Shown in pieces: positions 6,037 to 16,522 of a stretch of DNA of 28,673 nt. A program made the translations under genes and the position numbers. The notes beneath the pieces are model-generated. The model did no database searches and was not told the DNA's origin. It saw only the letters and a program-made list of their open reading frames with translations. Numbering within the stretch: the stretch's first letter is position 1; every line of letters begins with the position of its first letter. The DNA is from a virus. The DNA is taken from IMG/VR virus record IMGVR_UViG_3300035670_001012, positions 1 through 28,673 of that record, one strand, 5' to 3'.

Positions 6037-6085
6037 AAGTCCCCCCCCCGAAGGGGGGGGGGACTTGACACTTCGGTCAGACTCG
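6037..6085 (+). promoter_or_regulatory. Cassette A: C9/G10 hairpin joined to a TTGACA motif
   Basis: AAGT plus nine Cs (6037-6049), a GAA loop and ten Gs plus ACTT (6053-6066) form a very stable hairpin. Its right arm runs into TTGACACTTCGGTCAGACTC (6065-6084). The 23 bases 6063-6085 are identical to 10571-10593, where a similar hairpin occurs. TTGACA at 6065-6070 looks like a -35 element, but no -10 is visible at normal spacing. TGAC/GTCA inside the shared sequence form a small palindrome that could be an operator. It is 58 bases upstream of the 118-aa gene. Confidence 0.65.
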
Positions 6086-6143: not shown

Positions 6144-6500
6144 ATGAAGAAGAAGCGACAGAAACCAAAGACATCACCAGTAACAATCAGGCGAGAAGAA
6201 GTCAGTACCAGATTCCGTCAGGCTCTGGCTCTCAACAAGCCTGGTAATGCTGGCAGACCAGCCATCAAGTACAACGAAGTCATTGCCGCAGTTGGCAGTG
6301 AGTTGGCGTACTTCGTTGATGCCTGCCTAGATCGCAGGGTCACGACTCGTCAGTTGATGGAAGCAGTCAAGTCGTTGGGTGTAGTTATCTCATACCCCAC
6401 GATGGTCAGCATCAGGAAGCAGATTGAGCATGAGAACCGTTGGTTCTATGACATGCTTGACCAGATGGACAACCCCCAGGAGAATGTCACAGTTCTCTAG
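6144..6500 (+). CDS. Putative helix-turn-helix protein (118 aa)
   Basis: ATG 6144 follows AGGAG at 6129-6133. The protein has a very basic N-terminus (MKKKRQKPKTSPVTIRREEV), a GRPAIKYNE turn at about 38-46, and helices including RRVTTRQLMEAVKSLGVVIS and YPTMVSIRKQIE (about 64-95), which look like a small helix-turn-helix. It is the first gene after cassette A and so may regulate the following operon; that is inference. No catalytic motif is visible. It is separated from the next gene by 103 bp containing two hairpins. Confidence 0.6.
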   Translation: MKKKRQKPKTSPVTIRREEVSTRFRQALALNKPGNAGRPAIKYNEVIAAVGSELAYFVDACLDRRVTTRQLMEAVKSLGVVISYPTMVSIRKQIEHENRWFYDMLDQMDNPQENVTVL

Positions 6501-6505
6501 TCCAT

Positions 6506-6572
6506 ACGGCTAGTCAGAAGCCGTTATCCATAGCGTCGGCTGGCATACCCGATGAAATCTGACAGTATGCCA
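6506..6572 (+). promoter_or_regulatory. Two stem-loops upstream of the ATPase-VWA operon
   Basis: ACGGCT (6506-6511) pairs with AGCCGT (6519-6524). TGGCATAC (6541-6548) pairs perfectly with GTATGCCA (6565-6572) across a 16-base loop. Neither has a T-run, so they look more like RNA leader structure or operator sites than terminators. They lie between the 118-aa gene and the ribosome binding site (CAGGAG) of the 271-aa gene at 6604. Confidence 0.4.
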
Positions 6573-6603
6573 CACAACAACCACAACCCACAGGAGTACA
6601 ACC

Positions 6604-7419
6604 ATGACAGAAGAAGAGCAGGTGTTGGCAGAAGCAGCCAACATCATTGAACAAGCAAACACCAAGCAAGCCAATGACTACATTGAGTATGTCACCAAGG
6701 CTGCCTTACAACTAGAAGAACAACTCTGGCAGGAGTATGGCGTTCAAGAAGGCTATGCCTTATGGCGTCTAGCAATAGCCCATCAGGGTACGCCAGAGTC
6801 TGTTGAAGCCTATGGCGCAGAACTACTTGCCAACAATGAGCAGGTAGAGAAGGTTGATGTTGGTAGCCATGGCGACATGGAACCTAACTCTGTAATGCGC
6901 ATGGAGATTGCCTACTTTGCGCAAGACGGTATGCCAGACAACATCAAAGACCTATTGCGACAAGCCAAGTACATGGTCAAACTACATAACGACGATGGCT
7001 TCCATGGTCTAGTCGCAAGGACTGGTGCTTGGGCATCAAGCGATACATCTGGTGTCAAGCCAAGTGAAGCAAGCGACAAGGAGTCAATCACTCTTACCGT
7101 CGTTGCTATGGCTGGTCTGATGCTGGCTATTCCACGGTCAGATTCCACTGGCAAACGGTATGAAGACAAGGTCATGCCAATCAACTACTTCACACCATCA
7201 TCTAAGGAAGACGCACTCATGGTCAAGGCTTGTCACTCTCACCTTGAGAATGAGTACGGCGAGATGGCAAGTGCCATGTATGCGGCTATCGCATTCCCCC
7301 AGATGATCAAGATGGCAGACCCAGAGATGTTTGCCGCTTCACTCAAAGACCTTGACCGAATGGTCACAGGGTCTGATGACACACCGTCGTCAGACAAACC
7401 CACAGGAGACAAGCAATGA
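6604..7419 (+). CDS. Unknown protein of the MoxR-VWA operon (271 aa)
   Basis: ATG 6604 follows CAGGAG and begins the four-gene overlapping set. The protein starts MTEEEQVLAEAANIIEQANT and is largely helical and acidic, with a hydrophobic stretch ITLTVVAMAGLMLAIP near residues 160-175 and a disordered, acidic end (SDDTPSSDKP). I recognise no family or catalytic motif. Its end overlaps the ATPase start (ATGA, 7416-7419), so the two are probably made in step. The first residues resemble those of the 217-aa unknown at 9526 (MTDEEQVL), which may reflect shared ancestry or a shared start context. A substrate or adaptor role for the ATPase is inference from position. Confidence 0.75.
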   Translation: MTEEEQVLAEAANIIEQANTKQANDYIEYVTKAALQLEEQLWQEYGVQEGYALWRLAIAHQGTPESVEAYGAELLANNEQVEKVDVGSHGDMEPNSVMRMEIAYFAQDGMPDNIKDLLRQAKYMVKLHNDDGFHGLVARTGAWASSDTSGVKPSEASDKESITLTVVAMAGLMLAIPRSDSTGKRYEDKVMPINYFTPSSKEDALMVKACHSHLENEYGEMASAMYAAIAFPQMIKMADPEMFAASLKDLDRMVTGSDDTPSSDKPTGDKQ

Positions 7420-8132
7420 CAACCAAGAAAGACACACTCACCAACTGGCAGAAAGCGCAGTTCGCCATAGAGCATTCCAACAGGGTGCTTCTTTACGGAT
7501 TGCCTGGTACGGGTAAGACATACTTCGGGCTCAACTCTGCCCTGAAGGGTCGCAACTCATACCGTCTCATCTGTACCGAAGAGATGACTGACGCCGACCT
7601 GATTGGCTGCTACAAGCAGAACTCAGCAGGCAACTGGTCATTCGCTGAAGGCGTTGGCATCAAGGCTTGGCGTGAAGGCGCAAGACTTGTTGTTGATGAA
7701 ATCAACCGTATGAACGGTGATGTTGAGAGCCGTATGATGGCACTCATTGACAGCACTGCGTCAAGCAGTTGGCAGCACCCAGATACAGGCGAAGTCGTCA
7801 AGCCACATGAGAACTTCTCGGTGGTTGCGACCATGAATGGACTGCCAGAAGACTTGGCACCTGCCATTCTTGACCGTCTCACCGTAAGGTGCGAAGTCAA
7901 TGAGCCACACCCTGATGCTCTGGATTCACTGCCAGATTATCTGCGTGAGATAGCCAAGACCATGACTGACCCCAACGCAGTAAGGCGTTACTCGCTGCGT
8001 TCATTCGTGGACTTTGCTGCCATGTACGCAGCCAGCAATAACCTTGACCACTCAGCCCAAGTCGTCTTCCCTGAAGACCATGACTCGGTGACTACGGTGC
8101 TGAAGGTTGCTTCTCACAAGGCTGGTGTCTAG
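7416..8132 (+). CDS. MoxR-like AAA+ ATPase
   Basis: The 238-aa protein has the AAA+ landmarks of the MoxR/dynein-midasin group: Walker A GLPGTGKT (28-35), Walker B LVVDEINR (91-98; D94, E95), sensor 1 in VVATMNG (N141), and a likely arginine finger in ILDRLTVR (R154). It is short for MoxR (usually around 300 or more residues), with only a small lid after residue 160 and a candidate sensor-2 RRYSLRS (190-196). MoxR ATPases typically act with a VWA-domain partner as chaperones that remodel or mature a target; the next gene is exactly such a partner. ATGA overlap with the upstream gene and TAGTG with the downstream one indicate coupled translation. Confidence 0.88.
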   Translation: MTTKKDTLTNWQKAQFAIEHSNRVLLYGLPGTGKTYFGLNSALKGRNSYRLICTEEMTDADLIGCYKQNSAGNWSFAEGVGIKAWREGARLVVDEINRMNGDVESRMMALIDSTASSSWQHPDTGEVVKPHENFSVVATMNGLPEDLAPAILDRLTVRCEVNEPHPDALDSLPDYLREIAKTMTDPNAVRRYSLRSFVDFAAMYAASNNLDHSAQVVFPEDHDSVTTVLKVASHKAGV

Positions 8133-9529
8133 TGGTCAAGCACAAAGACTTCATGGGCTCTGCCTTACCTAAGCGCAGTACTCAGAAGAGCGACAAGTTC
8201 AAGAACACAGGTGGTTTCGTCAGCAGTATTGACTCAACCAATGTGTCCGTTAGAACCACAGAGTCTGGCAGTTCATACTCAGTACCGTCATTTGACGGTG
8301 TTGAGTTTGACCGAATGAGACGCTACGGTTTGGTTCTAACACGCTGGTCGCTTCATGACCAAGCCAAGTACGCCAAGCGTTGGGGCTTGACCGAACAGGT
8401 TGTTACGGCAACAAGCAGGGTGGTTAGCAACCTGCTGTTCTCTGACACCTTTGACGGTGAAGACCCAACGACAGACACCATCAACATCACACCGTATGTC
8501 AATGCCCTAAGGGGATTGAGCGTGACTGATGAGTTGATGACTGCCACCTTGGCACTGGCTGGTACTAAAGCCTTTGACGACATTGTCAATCAGGTAAGCA
8601 AAGAACCAGACTGTCAAGACTTGGCAGAACGCCTTACGGCTGCTGGTGAGAGCATCACTCAGACCATTGGGTACTACAAGCATGCGCTCAATGGGCTTCA
8701 CTCTGACAACAGTTACTACCAAAAGAAGGCAGTCAAGGCTTATCGCACTTTGGCGAGACATCTAAATGATTATGTGTCTCACCTTACGCATGAAGCCAAG
8801 AAAGCCAAGGCTGGTAGAGACGGTAAAGCAGGCAAGGGTTTCATGCCTAGAAACGAAGGCACACAGAAAGCCAAGCGAACACACAATGCCGTTGTTCGTA
8901 GGTTTCCTGAAGTCGCTGAGTCTGGGTGGATGGAACCTTATGTTGCCAAGTACCCGTTGGAACTACCACATACCGGCAAGGCTGGTAGGCGTATGATTCC
9001 AACGAACGAAGGCAGACAACCCAAGGCGTTCTATCGTCTAGTCACAGACCCTTATCGCCGTATCTTTCAACGCAAGACCAGAGCCCTAGGTGGTGTGGTC
9101 ATAGTTGATTGCTCAGGCTCAATGGGTCTAGACGAAGACGACATAAACGCCATGCTCAGTGCGTCTGCTGGTTGTACCATCATCTGCTACTCATCTGATT
9201 GCGAAAGCGATTCAAGTGACAGCGTTGATGGCAACATACACCTAGTCGCCAAGAACGGTAGGCGTATGCGTGGTCTGCCTTCCTTTCCTGGTGGTAACGG
9301 TGTTGATTTGCCAGCATTGCGTTACGGTTATGAGTATCACCGACTCAATGGCTTGTCGCCTGTCATCTGGATTTCAGATGGTCAAGTGACTGGCTGTGGT
9401 GACAGCATGACTGACGACCTTGTTGAGCAGACAGACACCTATGTCAGGCGCAAGAAGATAACCCAAGTCAGAACACCAAAGCAGGCAATCAAGTTGCTTG
9501 CCAAACTACAAAGGGGAATACGGTCATGA
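8132..9529 (+). CDS. VWA-domain (MIDAS) partner of the MoxR-like ATPase
   Basis: Start GTG 8132 overlaps the ATPase stop (TAGTG). Residues 1-300 are a helical region with a lysine-rich linker (AKKAKAGRDGKAGKGFMPRN, 222-241). The von Willebrand factor A domain follows from about 318: VVIVDCSGSMG (322-332) supplies the metal-ion-dependent adhesion site D326-x-S328-x-S330, GGNGVD (387-392) sits where the metal-coordinating Thr loop usually is, and WISDGQ (413-418; D416) supplies the last Asp. VWA proteins of this kind use the bound metal to hold a partner and are handed substrates by MoxR ATPases. The usual Thr in the second loop appears to be missing. The target is unknown. Confidence 0.85.
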   Translation: MVKHKDFMGSALPKRSTQKSDKFKNTGGFVSSIDSTNVSVRTTESGSSYSVPSFDGVEFDRMRRYGLVLTRWSLHDQAKYAKRWGLTEQVVTATSRVVSNLLFSDTFDGEDPTTDTINITPYVNALRGLSVTDELMTATLALAGTKAFDDIVNQVSKEPDCQDLAERLTAAGESITQTIGYYKHALNGLHSDNSYYQKKAVKAYRTLARHLNDYVSHLTHEAKKAKAGRDGKAGKGFMPRNEGTQKAKRTHNAVVRRFPEVAESGWMEPYVAKYPLELPHTGKAGRRMIPTNEGRQPKAFYRLVTDPYRRIFQRKTRALGGVVIVDCSGSMGLDEDDINAMLSASAGCTIICYSSDCESDSSDSVDGNIHLVAKNGRRMRGLPSFPGGNGVDLPALRYGYEYHRLNGLSPVIWISDGQVTGCGDSMTDDLVEQTDTYVRRKKITQVRTPKQAIKLLAKLQRGIRS

Positions 9530-10179
9530 CCGACGAAGAGCAAGTACTCAAGTCCTTGGAAGACTTGGTGAATGAAGCACAAGCCAAGATGCGTAGGGAA
9601 CAAACCGAAGAGCATCAAAGGGCTATGCCCTACCTAATGGCTGAAGCAATCAAACACGCAAGCAATGTTGAGTCAGGTGGAATACATCTGTTCGCTATCA
9701 GGTCAGTTGATGAACTGCCCGATGGCGTCACACCAGATGACCCATTCAATCTCAAGGACACATACCACCAGCACCTTTGCTTTCAGCACTGTCACCGATT
9801 TGATGACAGCAGAGACGCAGAGCAACTGATGATGAACATCAACTCGGCAATCATTCAGCACCATGCGTCAGAAGGTCAGCAGGTTGGCTACTTCCTGTTG
9901 GTCAATGACACAATCGGCTTGATGTATGCGTCAGCGAAACTGACAGTACACAAGGTGGTCAGTGCCAATGACAGCCAGACATTCACAGCAGACATCAACC
10001 ATGATGAGCCTGACGACTTCTTTCCGAAGGTCAATGTGACAGACGACATCAAGCGTCTATGCGCAGCCATCATGTTCTTTGCTGAAGGTGGTGCTGACTT
10101 CAAGCGCACAATGCCAGACACCTATGAGTTGATGCTCAAGCGTATGCTTGACAACCTAGGAGAGAGTGATGATGACTGA
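9526..10179 (+). CDS. Unknown acidic protein of the MoxR-VWA operon (217 aa)
   Basis: The gene starts at ATG 9526 in an ATGA overlap with the VWA gene. It begins MTDEEQVLKSLEDLVNEAQA, similar to the start of the 271-aa operon protein (MTEEEQVL). Later features are a His-rich section (TYHQHLCFQHCHRFDD, about 84-99), a strand-rich middle (QVGYFLLVNDTIGLMYA) and an acidic C-terminus (ESDDD). No known family is apparent. Overlap on both sides shows it belongs to the same transcript and is probably another component or substrate of the ATPase-VWA machine. Confidence 0.72.
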   Translation: MTDEEQVLKSLEDLVNEAQAKMRREQTEEHQRAMPYLMAEAIKHASNVESGGIHLFAIRSVDELPDGVTPDDPFNLKDTYHQHLCFQHCHRFDDSRDAEQLMMNINSAIIQHHASEGQQVGYFLLVNDTIGLMYASAKLTVHKVVSANDSQTFTADINHDEPDDFFPKVNVTDDIKRLCAAIMFFAEGGADFKRTMPDTYELMLKRMLDNLGESDDD

Positions 10180-10331
10180 TGGCAAAGGACTTATCACTCT
10201 TATTACTACCAGCCAGTGTGTATACGGTGTTGCGAGAAGCAGCCAATGCGCCATGGCATCTGTGGGATTACATAGTGAATGGCGGCTTTATCACTATCTG
10301 TGTGATCCTGTGGGTTGCTCTACGACAGTAA
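10179..10331 (+). CDS. Small membrane protein (50 aa)
   Basis: This frame starts at ATG 10179 in a TGATG overlap with the preceding stop and ends with TAA at 10329-10331. The product begins MAKDLSLLLLPASVYTVLRE and ends in a hydrophobic helix, GGFITICVILWVALRQ, so it has at least one membrane segment. AGGAGAGAG at 10158-10166 could serve as ribosome binding site. A 60-aa frame from 10166/10169 to 10348 uses the same DNA, but its product has no such pattern. If real, this would tether the MoxR-VWA operon to the membrane, or act in lysis as a holin-like protein; both are inference. Confidence 0.5.
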   Translation: MAKDLSLLLLPASVYTVLREAANAPWHLWDYIVNGGFITICVILWVALRQ

Positions 10332-10454: not shown

Positions 10455-10548
10455 AGTCTCTTATCAGAGACTTGTACTAATACCTGACTATCAAGTATCT
10501 AAGTTAGAACTTCTAAGTGCTATGGCAAGGCGAACACTTGTTCGCTTT
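10455..10548 (+). other. Structured non-coding stretch with three inverted repeats
   Basis: The stretch 10332-10647 holds no convincing gene. Besides the hairpin at 10380-10415 it has AGTCTCT/AGAGACT (10455-10461 and 10466-10472), the near-palindrome TTAGAA-C-TTCTAA (10504-10516), and AAGGCGAAC/GTTCGCTTT with an ACTT loop (10527-10535 and 10540-10548, one G-T pair). These could be operators, RNA leader structure or a small RNA. Cassette B follows directly at 10551. Confidence 0.45.
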
Positions 10549-10550
10549 CC

Positions 10551-10593
10551 AAGTACCCCCTAAAGGGGGTACTTGACACTTCGGTCAGACTCG
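10551..10593 (+). promoter_or_regulatory. Cassette B: hairpin joined to a TTGACA motif
   Basis: AAGTACCCCC (10551-10560) and GGGGGTACTT (10565-10574) form a 10-bp stem with a TAAA loop. The right arm runs into TTGACACTTCGGTCAGACTC (10573-10592). Bases 10571-10593 are identical to 6063-6085 in cassette A, while the hairpin sequence differs but keeps its form. No -10 box is evident 16-18 bases after TTGACA. The 97-aa gene starts 54 bases downstream, much as the 118-aa gene follows cassette A. Confidence 0.65.
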
Positions 10594-10941: not shown

Positions 10942-10947
10942 GCGATC

Positions 10948-10980
10948 AAGGGGTATGGGGCTAAAGCCCCATACCCCTTT
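10948..10980 (+). terminator. Intrinsic terminator 1
   Basis: AAGGGGTATGGGGCT (10948-10962) pairs with AGCCCCATACCCCTT (10965-10979), a perfect 15-bp stem with a two-base AA gap, 6 bases after the 97-aa gene. It is near-identical to terminator 2. Confidence 0.88.
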
Positions 10981-11009
10981 ACTTATGTCTCGCAACTAAT
11001 CTGACGGTC

Positions 11010-11047
11010 AAGGCGTATGGGGCTTTAGCCCCATACGCCTTTATTTC
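11010..11047 (+). terminator. Intrinsic terminator 2 (near copy of terminator 1)
   Basis: AAGGCGTATGGGGCT (11010-11024) pairs with AGCCCCATACGCCTT (11027-11041), followed by TATTT. The stem differs from terminator 1 by one compensated base pair and has a TT rather than AA centre. The tandem pair isolates the upstream transcript from the packaging module. Confidence 0.88.
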
Positions 11048-11141
11048 TGCCTACTAACTAGGCGCGCGTGAAATGGGGGTCTGCCGAGCCGTCGGGGGGT
11101 GGGGCGCGCAATATGCCGTTCTCTCCATCTGCGTAAAACCG

Positions 11142-13702: not shown

Positions 13703-16522
13703 ATGGCCAAGAAAGACCCATACAAGAGGATTCAAAAGCGCTTCGTAGAAGCCAGGGCTGCCGGTCAGGGTCTTGAGTATGAAGACCTAACAATCGAACA
13801 ACGCGAGCGATTCCAGAATCGATTCAACACCCTTGCCCAAACAGTCGAGGGTCGCGGAACAATTGCACAGCGTCTACTTGGCCCCGATGCCGCACAGGAA
13901 CAACGCAGGGGTTTGCGCCAGCGCATTAGGGAAAACCTTCCCGGCACAAAGTTGCCGGAACCTGGTGGTAGCCCAACGGGGGATACGGAAGAACCAACAA
14001 CCAAGCCACTGACGATGCGCGACTTCCGCCGTGAGGAAGCCAAGACATCGACATATCGAGCGGGTACTTACAAGACTCCCACATCGACACGGGCTGAACC
14101 AAAAACCACCGTTACCGCCACGACCAAGACCAGCACTGGTGGTCAAGGAATCTTGGGCAAAATTGGAAGTGGAATTTACGGAGCAGCATCCAAAGTTGGT
14201 CAGGCAACTCTCGACGAACTTGGTTACGCGCAGCGTGCCTATGTCAATCCCGTAATCAACCTGGCTGGACGCACCGCCGACATCATTGGCGGTCGAACTG
14301 GATCACAGAAGTTCAAGCCACTTCCAGAACTCAGCGGCAAAGAAATTGCAATTGAATCGGGAGTAATCGTAACTGGTGGCCTTGCCGGAAAAATTGCAGG
14401 ACCACTTGTCCGAGGAACGGCTCGCACCGCTTTGGGAGTTACCAAAACGGTAGGTCGAGCGGGAGCACCAGGTGCTGCATCAATTGTCGCAAGTCCAATC
14501 GAACGAGTCATTGCTCAGCAAACGGCACGTCAACAAGTTTTGCAGGCCACGCAGCGCAAGGCACTTGGAGAACAAGTCGTTACTCGATATGGCAGCGCAC
14601 TGTCCGATCTTGTTCCGAGTCGTGTTACTCCGGCTGGCAGCAAAGTTACGCGCACCACTCCGGCAACAAGTGGCGTCACGCGCTCCACTGTCCCTGGGGC
14701 CACAGCACCAAAGGTTACGAAGCCAAAAGTTACTAAGCCGAAAGTTACAAAGCCAAAGGTTACGCAGACCAAGGTTACGACGCAAAGCGTCGAACAGGCC
14801 ACCGAAGAGTACGCACCAGGTTTCAACAAGGTTGCTGGCGAAATGGAAATGCGTTCAACCGAAGTTACGCCGCTTCCTGCCACCACTCGTGCAACTACAG
14901 CATCGCTAACAAAGCAACCAAAGAAGGCAACGAAAGTCGACGTTACTCCAGAGCCAGTGAAGGCACCAGAGCCGGTACCTACCGCTCCTGGAAAGCAATG
15001 GTGGAAAGAAGAAACGATTCCCAAGAGCCAGCGCGAGTTCCTCGAAGACTTGTCGGCTGAGCAACGTGGTGATATCTACGATGTCACGCCACGCAAGGAA
15101 CCAAAAGTCAAGTCAACTCGCCAATCCAAGGCCAAGCCAATCTCAGTTGAAAAGTTGGAGCAGCCCTCGTCGCCCGTCAAAGAGGTCAAGACGACCAAAG
15201 CCACTCAAAAAAAAAGCGTAACCCCTCAGCCCGCTAAAGCCCCAGAGGCAAAGCAATCTGTTCAAATCACAAAAGAGGAAGAAGACATTCTTCGTCTTTA
15301 CCCATCTAGCGCCAAGGCTCAAGAAATATCCGCAAGGCAACGCGGAGTAAAACCATTTGTTCCGGGCAAGGGTAAAGCGGAACTGCCCACGACAGTAGAA
15401 AAATCTTGGGTTCCAGAACGCTCATCTAGTGAAATTTTGTTTGAGGCAATGAACGTTCCCAAGCCCAAGGAGCCACTTGGCTGGACGCCGAAGAAAGTAA
15501 CCAAGTTGCCCAAGCGCGACAATCCCGCGCTGGACAAACTTGAAAATAAAGGCAGTCAACTTTTCCGCATGTACGACCAAGGTATTGGTAGTGGAAAGCG
15601 CCCTGGTGGTTCGGCTGGAGAAATCAATACCGGTCTTCTTCCATCGGCGGAATTTGATGACATTGTTTCCGGGGCCAAAACGACCGGCTTCGATCTTACG
15701 AAATCCCAGGAAGAAGCACTAAGAAAACAGATCAACGAGACCCTCGAACAGGAAAGCGCGATTCGTCGCGGTACTGCAATAAATCCGCGACTTCGCCGTA
15801 CGTCAACAAGGACCGTGATTGAAGGCACCATGGAAATGCCAACGACCATGAGCAGCGGCAGCATGAAGACTCTGTATGGTCCACAATTGCCATCAGTCGG
15901 CAAAAGCGCAGAACAAAGATTGGCGGAGTACTACCGCTCTTTGTACCCACAAGCCAGGTCGAATGCTGAAGCGCGCAAACTTTACGCACGGGATCGCGGG
16001 CTTGATCCATCAAGTCTTAGGCCCGACCCCGTTGGTAGCCCGCTTGGCGCCAAAGCATCTCGCAGCCCGGTCACAGAAATGGAAGTATCTCGACCGGTCA
16101 AATTCGAAGAAGTCACGACAATCGTTGGTGGCAAGAAGGTCACGACCAAGAAGCCAACGAAGTTCGTCAAGGAAAGAGTCAAAGCGGTTGAAACACTGTT
16201 TGGCACTGTTCCTGTTGAGGAGATGGCAACGCCAACCTCGCAGCGTTGGATCAATGACCCGTCCGTAATCCAAGGGAAGAGACTGGAAGCAAAGGCTTCC
16301 AAGATGAAGACCGAGGCAACTCGTGCTGCCCAACTGCGCGCCCGTGGTATTCAGGGTGAAGCACGCGGTCGGGAGTTCCAGAAAGTCAAGCAGGCGACCG
16401 AAGAGGGCAAGGCATTCCAGGTTCGATTCGACGAGATGTTGAACAAGCCTGCATCCCCGACCGGTGAGATTCGGAGCACCAAGAAGACCGGAAGCAAAAA
16501 GAGAGGGAAGAGGAAGAAGTAG
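13703..16522 (+). CDS. Large basic low-complexity protein (939 aa)
   Basis: This protein lies between terminase and portal. It starts MAKKDPYKRIQKRFVEARAA and is rich in Lys, Arg, Thr and Pro throughout. Near residue 213 there is an uncharged, glycine-rich stretch (GVIVTGGLAGKIAGPLV) that could contact membrane. Residues 337-361 are five pentapeptide repeats of the KVTKP type. The C-terminus is strongly basic (KKTGSKKRGKRKK). Long disordered basic proteins in phage head modules can be packaged with DNA or ejected into the host. No enzymatic motif was recognised. Translation of the portal begins within its last base (GTG 16522), so the two are coupled. No ribosome binding site precedes ATG 13703. 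Confidence 0.75.
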   Translation: MAKKDPYKRIQKRFVEARAAGQGLEYEDLTIEQRERFQNRFNTLAQTVEGRGTIAQRLLGPDAAQEQRRGLRQRIRENLPGTKLPEPGGSPTGDTEEPTTKPLTMRDFRREEAKTSTYRAGTYKTPTSTRAEPKTTVTATTKTSTGGQGILGKIGSGIYGAASKVGQATLDELGYAQRAYVNPVINLAGRTADIIGGRTGSQKFKPLPELSGKEIAIESGVIVTGGLAGKIAGPLVRGTARTALGVTKTVGRAGAPGAASIVASPIERVIAQQTARQQVLQATQRKALGEQVVTRYGSALSDLVPSRVTPAGSKVTRTTPATSGVTRSTVPGATAPKVTKPKVTKPKVTKPKVTQTKVTTQSVEQATEEYAPGFNKVAGEMEMRSTEVTPLPATTRATTASLTKQPKKATKVDVTPEPVKAPEPVPTAPGKQWWKEETIPKSQREFLEDLSAEQRGDIYDVTPRKEPKVKSTRQSKAKPISVEKLEQPSSPVKEVKTTKATQKKSVTPQPAKAPEAKQSVQITKEEEDILRLYPSSAKAQEISARQRGVKPFVPGKGKAELPTTVEKSWVPERSSSEILFEAMNVPKPKEPLGWTPKKVTKLPKRDNPALDKLENKGSQLFRMYDQGIGSGKRPGGSAGEINTGLLPSAEFDDIVSGAKTTGFDLTKSQEEALRKQINETLEQESAIRRGTAINPRLRRTSTRTVIEGTMEMPTTMSSGSMKTLYGPQLPSVGKSAEQRLAEYYRSLYPQARSNAEARKLYARDRGLDPSSLRPDPVGSPLGAKASRSPVTEMEVSRPVKFEEVTTIVGGKKVTTKKPTKFVKERVKAVETLFGTVPVEEMATPTSQRWINDPSVIQGKRLEAKASKMKTEATRAAQLRARGIQGEARGREFQKVKQATEEGKAFQVRFDEMLNKPASPTGEIRSTKKTGSKKRGKRKK
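14711..14785 (+). repeat. Five 15-nt coding repeats (KVTKP)
   Basis: Five tandem units of 15 bases, of the form AAGGTTACGAAGCCA with synonymous and a few coding changes, encode residues 337-361 of the 939-aa protein. Wobble-position variation shows the peptide repeat has been kept under selection or is old. Copy number may vary between related phages. Confidence 0.85.

Follow-up and report, generated by a model that had tools for sequence, protein, structure and literature searches.

The window analysed here, the virus record IMGVR_UViG_3300035670_001012 in its full length of 28,673 bases, carries on its plus strand an operon in which a MoxR-type AAA+ ATPase (238 amino acids (aa), 7416-8132) and a von Willebrand factor A (VWA) protein (465 aa, GTG start, 8132-9529) are enclosed by two further proteins, P1 (271 aa, 6604-7419) and P2 (217 aa, 9526-10179), and followed by a 50-aa membrane peptide with a hydrophobic segment at its C-terminus (10179-10331). 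We conclude that the products of the operon probably form an ATP-driven machine for protein remodelling, constructed in the manner of NorQ-NorD; the VWA protein has lost an inherited HExxH motif, and the partners P1 and P2 are divergent copies of a single family. The five open reading frames overlap their neighbours by 4 bases or 1 base and lie where a preliminary description of this DNA had placed them, and the order whiB, in part of the relatives a 118-aa gene, P1, MoxR, VWA, P2, 50-aa gene and terL recurs in related phages, so that the dedicated MoxR-VWA operon of overlapping genes in an actinophage-type virus, proposed in that description, is borne out. Because this order recurs in dozens of contigs and the four large genes are all under purifying selection (ratio of nonsynonymous to synonymous rates, dN/dS, 0.03-0.52), the operon genes are real genes.

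The ATPase matches Pfam AAA_5 (E 9e-17), and its Walker A, Walker B (D94 E95), sensor 1 (T139, N141) and D153-R154 (arginine finger) are invariant in 27 relatives. The same holds, in 26 relatives, for the metal-ion-dependent adhesion site (MIDAS) of the VWA protein, D326-x-S328-G-S330 plus N389, D392 and D416, where N389 stands near the expected site of the canonical MIDAS threonine; both assignments had been made from the letters alone and both held up. By profile, the nearest solved structures to MoxR are midasin, followed by NorQ (E 5e-13) and CbbQ, and the PHROGs database already contains relatives of it (phrog_16448, ATPase). In the MoxR tree the window clade is monophyletic (99/99), as is a set of chromosomal homologues (97/99). 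Unlike the ATPases of bpMoxR/VMAP ternary conflict systems (PMC7159879), the window MoxR stays below the Pfam cutoff in the bpMoxR domain test (16.7 bits vs 27).

A Pfam scan assigns no domain to the VWA protein, which matches phrog_33218, a family of unknown function, over its full length (E 3e-95). It consists of an N-terminal helical domain, a linker, a pre-VWA β segment (about residues 254-312) and a C-terminal VWA domain with the MIDAS. The best fold match of its structure model (predicted local distance difference test (pLDDT) 87, predicted template modelling score (pTM) 0.55) is the VWA domain of NorD as solved with NorQ (Z 10.0 over 182 residues, also 9.0), ahead of generic VWA domains (Z ≤8.4), and the alignment starts at residue 256, so it takes in the pre-VWA segment. 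An active MoxR AAA+ core and an adjacent C-terminal VWA domain with MIDAS, both features of NorQ-NorD and CbbQ-CbbO, are present in the window, and these pairs, in which a MoxR ring ATPase adjoins a VWA protein made up of an N-terminal domain, a linker and a C-terminal part with the MIDAS, are the nearest solved structures for both halves. The window pair differs in being phage-encoded and in having the duplicated P proteins as an extra. Since no linked nor or cbb target gene was recognised among the window proteins scanned, we do not file the operon as NorQD or CbbQO.

The preliminary description had not recognised such a gene set in an actinophage; the MoxR-vWA pair itself is documented in several tailed-virus groups (PMC2784036, PMC7824862, PMC8651126, PMC7911831, PMC9964418), and such pairs are found in N4, cyanophages, haloviruses, jumbo phages and ATV. 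What is new is therefore not the pair in a phage, it is the lost HExxH motif together with duplicated putative adaptors of unknown family. The jumbo phage pair of MoxR and a metallopeptidase-vWA protein (PMC7824862) is one such phage pair, and HExxH-VWA homologues of the window protein occur in related phages and in Acidimicrobiia; the window differs from it in the loss of the motif, the added P1 and P2 and a far smaller phage. In N4 gp24/gp25 and the phage CobS/CobT pairs (PMC2784036, PMC8651126), all from tailed viruses, an AAA ATPase likewise adjoins a vWA protein, yet their sequences are distant and no duplicated adaptor family is noted there. The p618-p892 pair of ATV is also a viral MoxR and VWA pair, experimentally linked to virion proteins (PMC4124505); it differs in that it belongs to an archaeal virus, that p618 was modelled on RavA and not on NorQ, and that no P proteins are reported there.

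Near residue 60 of the VWA protein, HExxH is found in 57/57 chromosomal copies and in 20 VWA proteins of other phage contigs. Where these homologues have AHELMH, the window protein has MRRYGL and its clade RRYGL or similar, and none of the aligned members of the terL clade has HExxH at that position. The phage clade of the window has thus lost an inherited motif, which, judging from the motif itself and from published metallopeptidase-vWA pairs (PMC7824862), presumably marks a peptidase.

The chromosomal copies derive from a MoxR scan of bacterial genomes that returned 62 loci, mostly from metagenome-assembled genomes (MAGs) of Acidimicrobiia and nearly all with an adjoining VWA gene; a scan with the VWA alignment had given nothing, which the later MoxR scan revealed as a sensitivity failure. 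About 50 of the 62 loci have the order MoxR-VWA-LysM-NrdR-PIG-L-DinB. In the Acidimicrobiia MAG loci (L224-L284, e.g. L267:5917-11070) the second gene is an HExxH-VWA gene and the series is often followed by tRNA-Cys; the neighbour names were checked with Pfam in L267, where the LysM match is below cutoff. This cluster represents an uncharacterised MoxR/VWA system beside nrdR. Not every member of the class has the pair, as 10/148 genomes sampled gave a match, and no member of the P family was found in the chromosomal MoxR loci.

The relationship between P1 and P2 emerged when their iterated profiles repeatedly recruited each other and position-defined alignments of the two matched with E 3e-21 in hhalign. 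Circular recruitment was excluded by rebuilding both sets from direct BLASTP matches to the window proteins only; the rebuilt sets share no member and match with E 3.6e-14 over 231 columns, whereas eleven other families from the same phages, used as controls, gave E ≥0.049 against P1 and ≥0.038 against P2. Single P1 and P2 sequences also match directly (E to 1e-7). On these comparisons, P1 and P2 are the 5' and 3' copies of one diverged family, which makes the "two unknown partners" of the preliminary description paralogues. Neither convincingly matches a Pfam or PHROG family (no VMAP profile was searched by name). In several phages a third, shorter copy, marked by a GWAxP...PSxHxxR(R)RVRL motif, is located between MoxR and VWA; it matches P1 clearly and P2 only weakly. 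The AlphaFold model of P1 (pLDDT 89.8, pTM 0.83) found no convincing match in the PDB (best Z 5.3), and in a viral library only uncharacterised proteins, including S5Y969 of Mycobacterium phage Catdawg, which, judged by its length, is most likely gp79; the P family thus probably includes a Catdawg protein. Two contigs (L211 and L217) have two P-family copies each without MoxR-VWA. The 258-294-aa proteins located downstream in HExxH phages were considered as P homologues, which was not supported.

At least 54 loci of related uncultivated phages carry MoxR, and VWA adjoins it wherever the contig continues; the locus sets used, all of uncultivated contigs, overlap (25 with MoxR, 80 with terL, 79 with VWA). 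Among viral contigs the MoxR scan was productive and a single-sequence VWA scan was not, and searches of the annotated phage collection at the DNA level and with the VWA protein gave no match. Because a terminase search revealed no close cultured phage and, in an Acidimicrobiia bin, a single match of 40%, any host assignment is a guess. On a terL tree of 54 phages, the presence of MoxR is explained by two changes: one sister clade of 23 phages is without MoxR, and inside that clade L082 has it. No MoxR was found elsewhere in the genome in 15 records of the MoxR-less clade, records that may be incomplete. A gene for a C5 DNA methyltransferase, called from its own sequence motifs and not by family search, often takes the operon position in this clade (12/25 MoxR-less vs 3/58 MoxR-positive loci). 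Such methyltransferase-like genes lie between whiB and terL in loci such as L089 (4353-6053) and L091 (3135-5096); in L023 (7885-9219), L060 and L097 they adjoin MoxR.

Compared with the relative L002, identity decreases from terL (95%) to MoxR (85%), VWA (62%), P1 (51%) and P2 (44%), the pattern that a constant engine with changing adaptors would produce. Across close pairs, dN/dS amounts to 0.03-0.05 for terL, 0.03-0.18 for MoxR, 0.18-0.32 for VWA, 0.08-0.36 for P1 and 0.16-0.52 for P2, with no gene-level sign of positive selection. The rate rises from MoxR through VWA to P1 and P2, a growing tolerance outward from the engine, and all of these are functional proteins.

Because the model of the VWA protein matches NorD best, we infer NorQ-NorD mechanics for the operon. 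In NorQD, a metal-insertion machine, a finger that projects from the VWA domain reaches into the pore of the ring, and as ATP is hydrolysed the VWA domain is twisted relative to the N-terminal domain (PMC13036017). By analogy, MoxR would form a ring on which the VWA protein sits with its pre-VWA β segment as a finger in the pore, the MIDAS metal site and the N-terminal domain would hold a client, and an ATP-driven twist of the VWA domain relative to the N-terminal domain would alter that client. Since the N-terminal domain seems to descend from a peptidase-like form that lost HExxH, the client is expected to be remodelled and not cut. P1 and P2, copies of an actinophage family that also occurs alone, may have been recruited as client-specific adaptors, a role that is about as likely as not. 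The client would be a phage protein; the large, basic, low-complexity product of the gene between terL and portal is the first, if rather doubtful, candidate. Taken together, machine, P adaptors and phage-protein client form our best overall explanation, which we put forward tentatively. Its fullest version we consider unlikely: that a former AAA+ and peptidase-VWA system became a non-cutting chaperone in one phage lineage, in which HExxH decayed, an unrelated actinophage protein was taken in as adaptor in two flanking copies, and the whole came to serve the loading or maturation of one large low-complexity virion protein, the size of which co-evolved with the module.

The candidate client (939 aa, pI 10.1; 13703-16522, plus strand) is linked to the operon by association. 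A terL-portal gap of at least 1 kb is present in 22/22 distinct phages with both P copies vs 0/30 others. Loss of the operon in close relatives comes with a linked change, as the gap gene is missing or short in the MoxR-less sister clade, and on this point the preliminary description was not refuted; L082, the MoxR-positive phage within that clade, encodes a homologue of the gap protein with 231 aa (2.8e-8). It is this association, together with the precedent of ATV, where p618 binds virion proteins (PMC4124505), that favours a virion client. The 939-aa protein contains KPKVT repeats (14704-14783), and its size and sequence vary widely among relatives.

Several observations weigh against this explanation. 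A Foldseek search with the VWA model gave nothing significant (E above 0.1), which is why we rate the NorD likeness as moderate evidence. The co-occurrence of gap gene and P pair mostly reflects one clade-level event, so that it can serve as a lead but not as proof. L075 encodes a gap protein of 260 aa and similar composition yet has no MoxR, and the gap gene is absent from divergent MoxR-positive phages. Moreover, P-family genes occur without MoxR-VWA in other phage contigs, often near whiB (L203, L207, L211, L214-L217, L219). Finally, the early region lies on one side of the operon and terL on the other, and terminator-like repeats (10943-11060), two tandem 56-nt hairpin units of 80% identity that follow a 98-aa gene, separate it from the late genes.

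The last two points would suit host takeover or counter-defence, where the same machine, expressed ahead of the late genes from an insulated unit of its own, would remodel or disarm a host protein or complex, with P1 and P2 binding the host target and evolving fast to follow it. What favours it is the position of the operon between the recombination genes and WhiB on one side and terL on the other, the operators, the P genes near whiB and the methyltransferase at the operon position. Twin cassettes also flank the operon, as had been claimed beforehand: on the left, ACTTGACACTTCGGTCAGACTCG (6063-6085, plus strand) stands directly 3' of a C9-GAA-G10 hairpin (about 6042-6066), and on the right the identical 23-mer (10571-10593, plus strand) follows the hairpin AAGTACCCCC-TAAA-GGGGGTACTT, with 0 such pairs expected in shuffles. 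The left cassette looks promoter- or operator-like; no good -10 box was found in it, and a sigma-70 scan detected no promoters above chance. L010 carries its own, different pair of flanking cassettes. A LexA-box-like palindrome, CGAACACTTGTTCG (CGAAC-N4-GTTCG), lies at 10531-10544 on the plus strand. In relatives, palindromes of this kind are over-represented in the 1.5 kb upstream of MoxR (15/54 loci vs 4.3 expected, 0/1000), which suggests control by the SOS response or by a phage repressor. A possible SOS-type operator preceding whiB (4676) was set aside, as it falls inside the coding sequence for EQLF of the preceding gene. That P and VWA evolve fastest would also fit a host target, yet selection in all genes is purifying and not diversifying (dN/dS <0.55), two changes on the terL tree mean a stable inheritance unusual for a swapped defence cassette, and no likeness to a described counter-defence protein appeared in Pfam or PHROGs. 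We regard takeover as possible; it stands nearly even with the virion client, which we name first because it makes the sharper prediction.

A further reading, in which the machine would mature or reactivate an enzyme of nucleotide metabolism that works with a metal or a radical, such as ribonucleotide reductase, and the phage copy would boost dNTP supply, appears improbable. NrdR is the repressor of ribonucleotide reductase, and the homologous Acidimicrobiia pair lies upstream of LysM-NrdR-PIG-L-DinB; the MoxR/VWA-type pairs of phages Cantare and Pumpernickel are located near genes for dNMP kinase, ThyX or 5'-nucleotidase, and NorQD, which acts on NO reductase, inserts metal (PMC13036017). However, adjacency to nrdR is not function, P1 and P2 have no place in such a model, and within the window, only 28.7 kb in length, a ribonucleotide reductase was not recognised. 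A CobS/CobT-like chelatase aiding host CobN in cobalamin synthesis, which is how phage cobST pairs have been interpreted in the literature (PMC8651126) and which is in keeping with a match to PHROG 249 'porphyrin biosynthesis' (E 4.5e-20), is most improbable, as a long, well supported branch (99/98) parts MoxR from the annotated phage CobS-type proteins tested, which fall outside, and NorQ and CbbQ match far better than CobS (5e-13 vs 3e-4).

Around the operon, an exonuclease-type gene, a RecE-type recombinase gene and a WhiB gene lie upstream, and terL, the 939-aa gene, portal and a capsid gene downstream. Directly 5' of the operon, a separate gene for a 118-aa protein (6144-6500, plus strand), kept in part of the relatives, may be a member of the system and is a candidate only; the profile of its family matches two sites in the window, this gene and a short open reading frame near the exonuclease gene (514-753). 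The 50-aa gene has homologues in 13 loci and occupies the same operon position in the relatives showing the gene order given above.

Phage MoxR-vWA pairs are widespread, and their published roles are conflicting guesses (chelatase, chaperone, stress gene). The window clade offers a compact version, with an engine, a decayed peptidase-like domain, two homologous partners and a chromosomal relative beside nrdR. Together with a named candidate client and naturally occurring with/without controls, this opens the question to tests. Should the client indeed be the terL-portal protein, these phages would possess a dedicated, energy-driven chaperone tied to one virion component.

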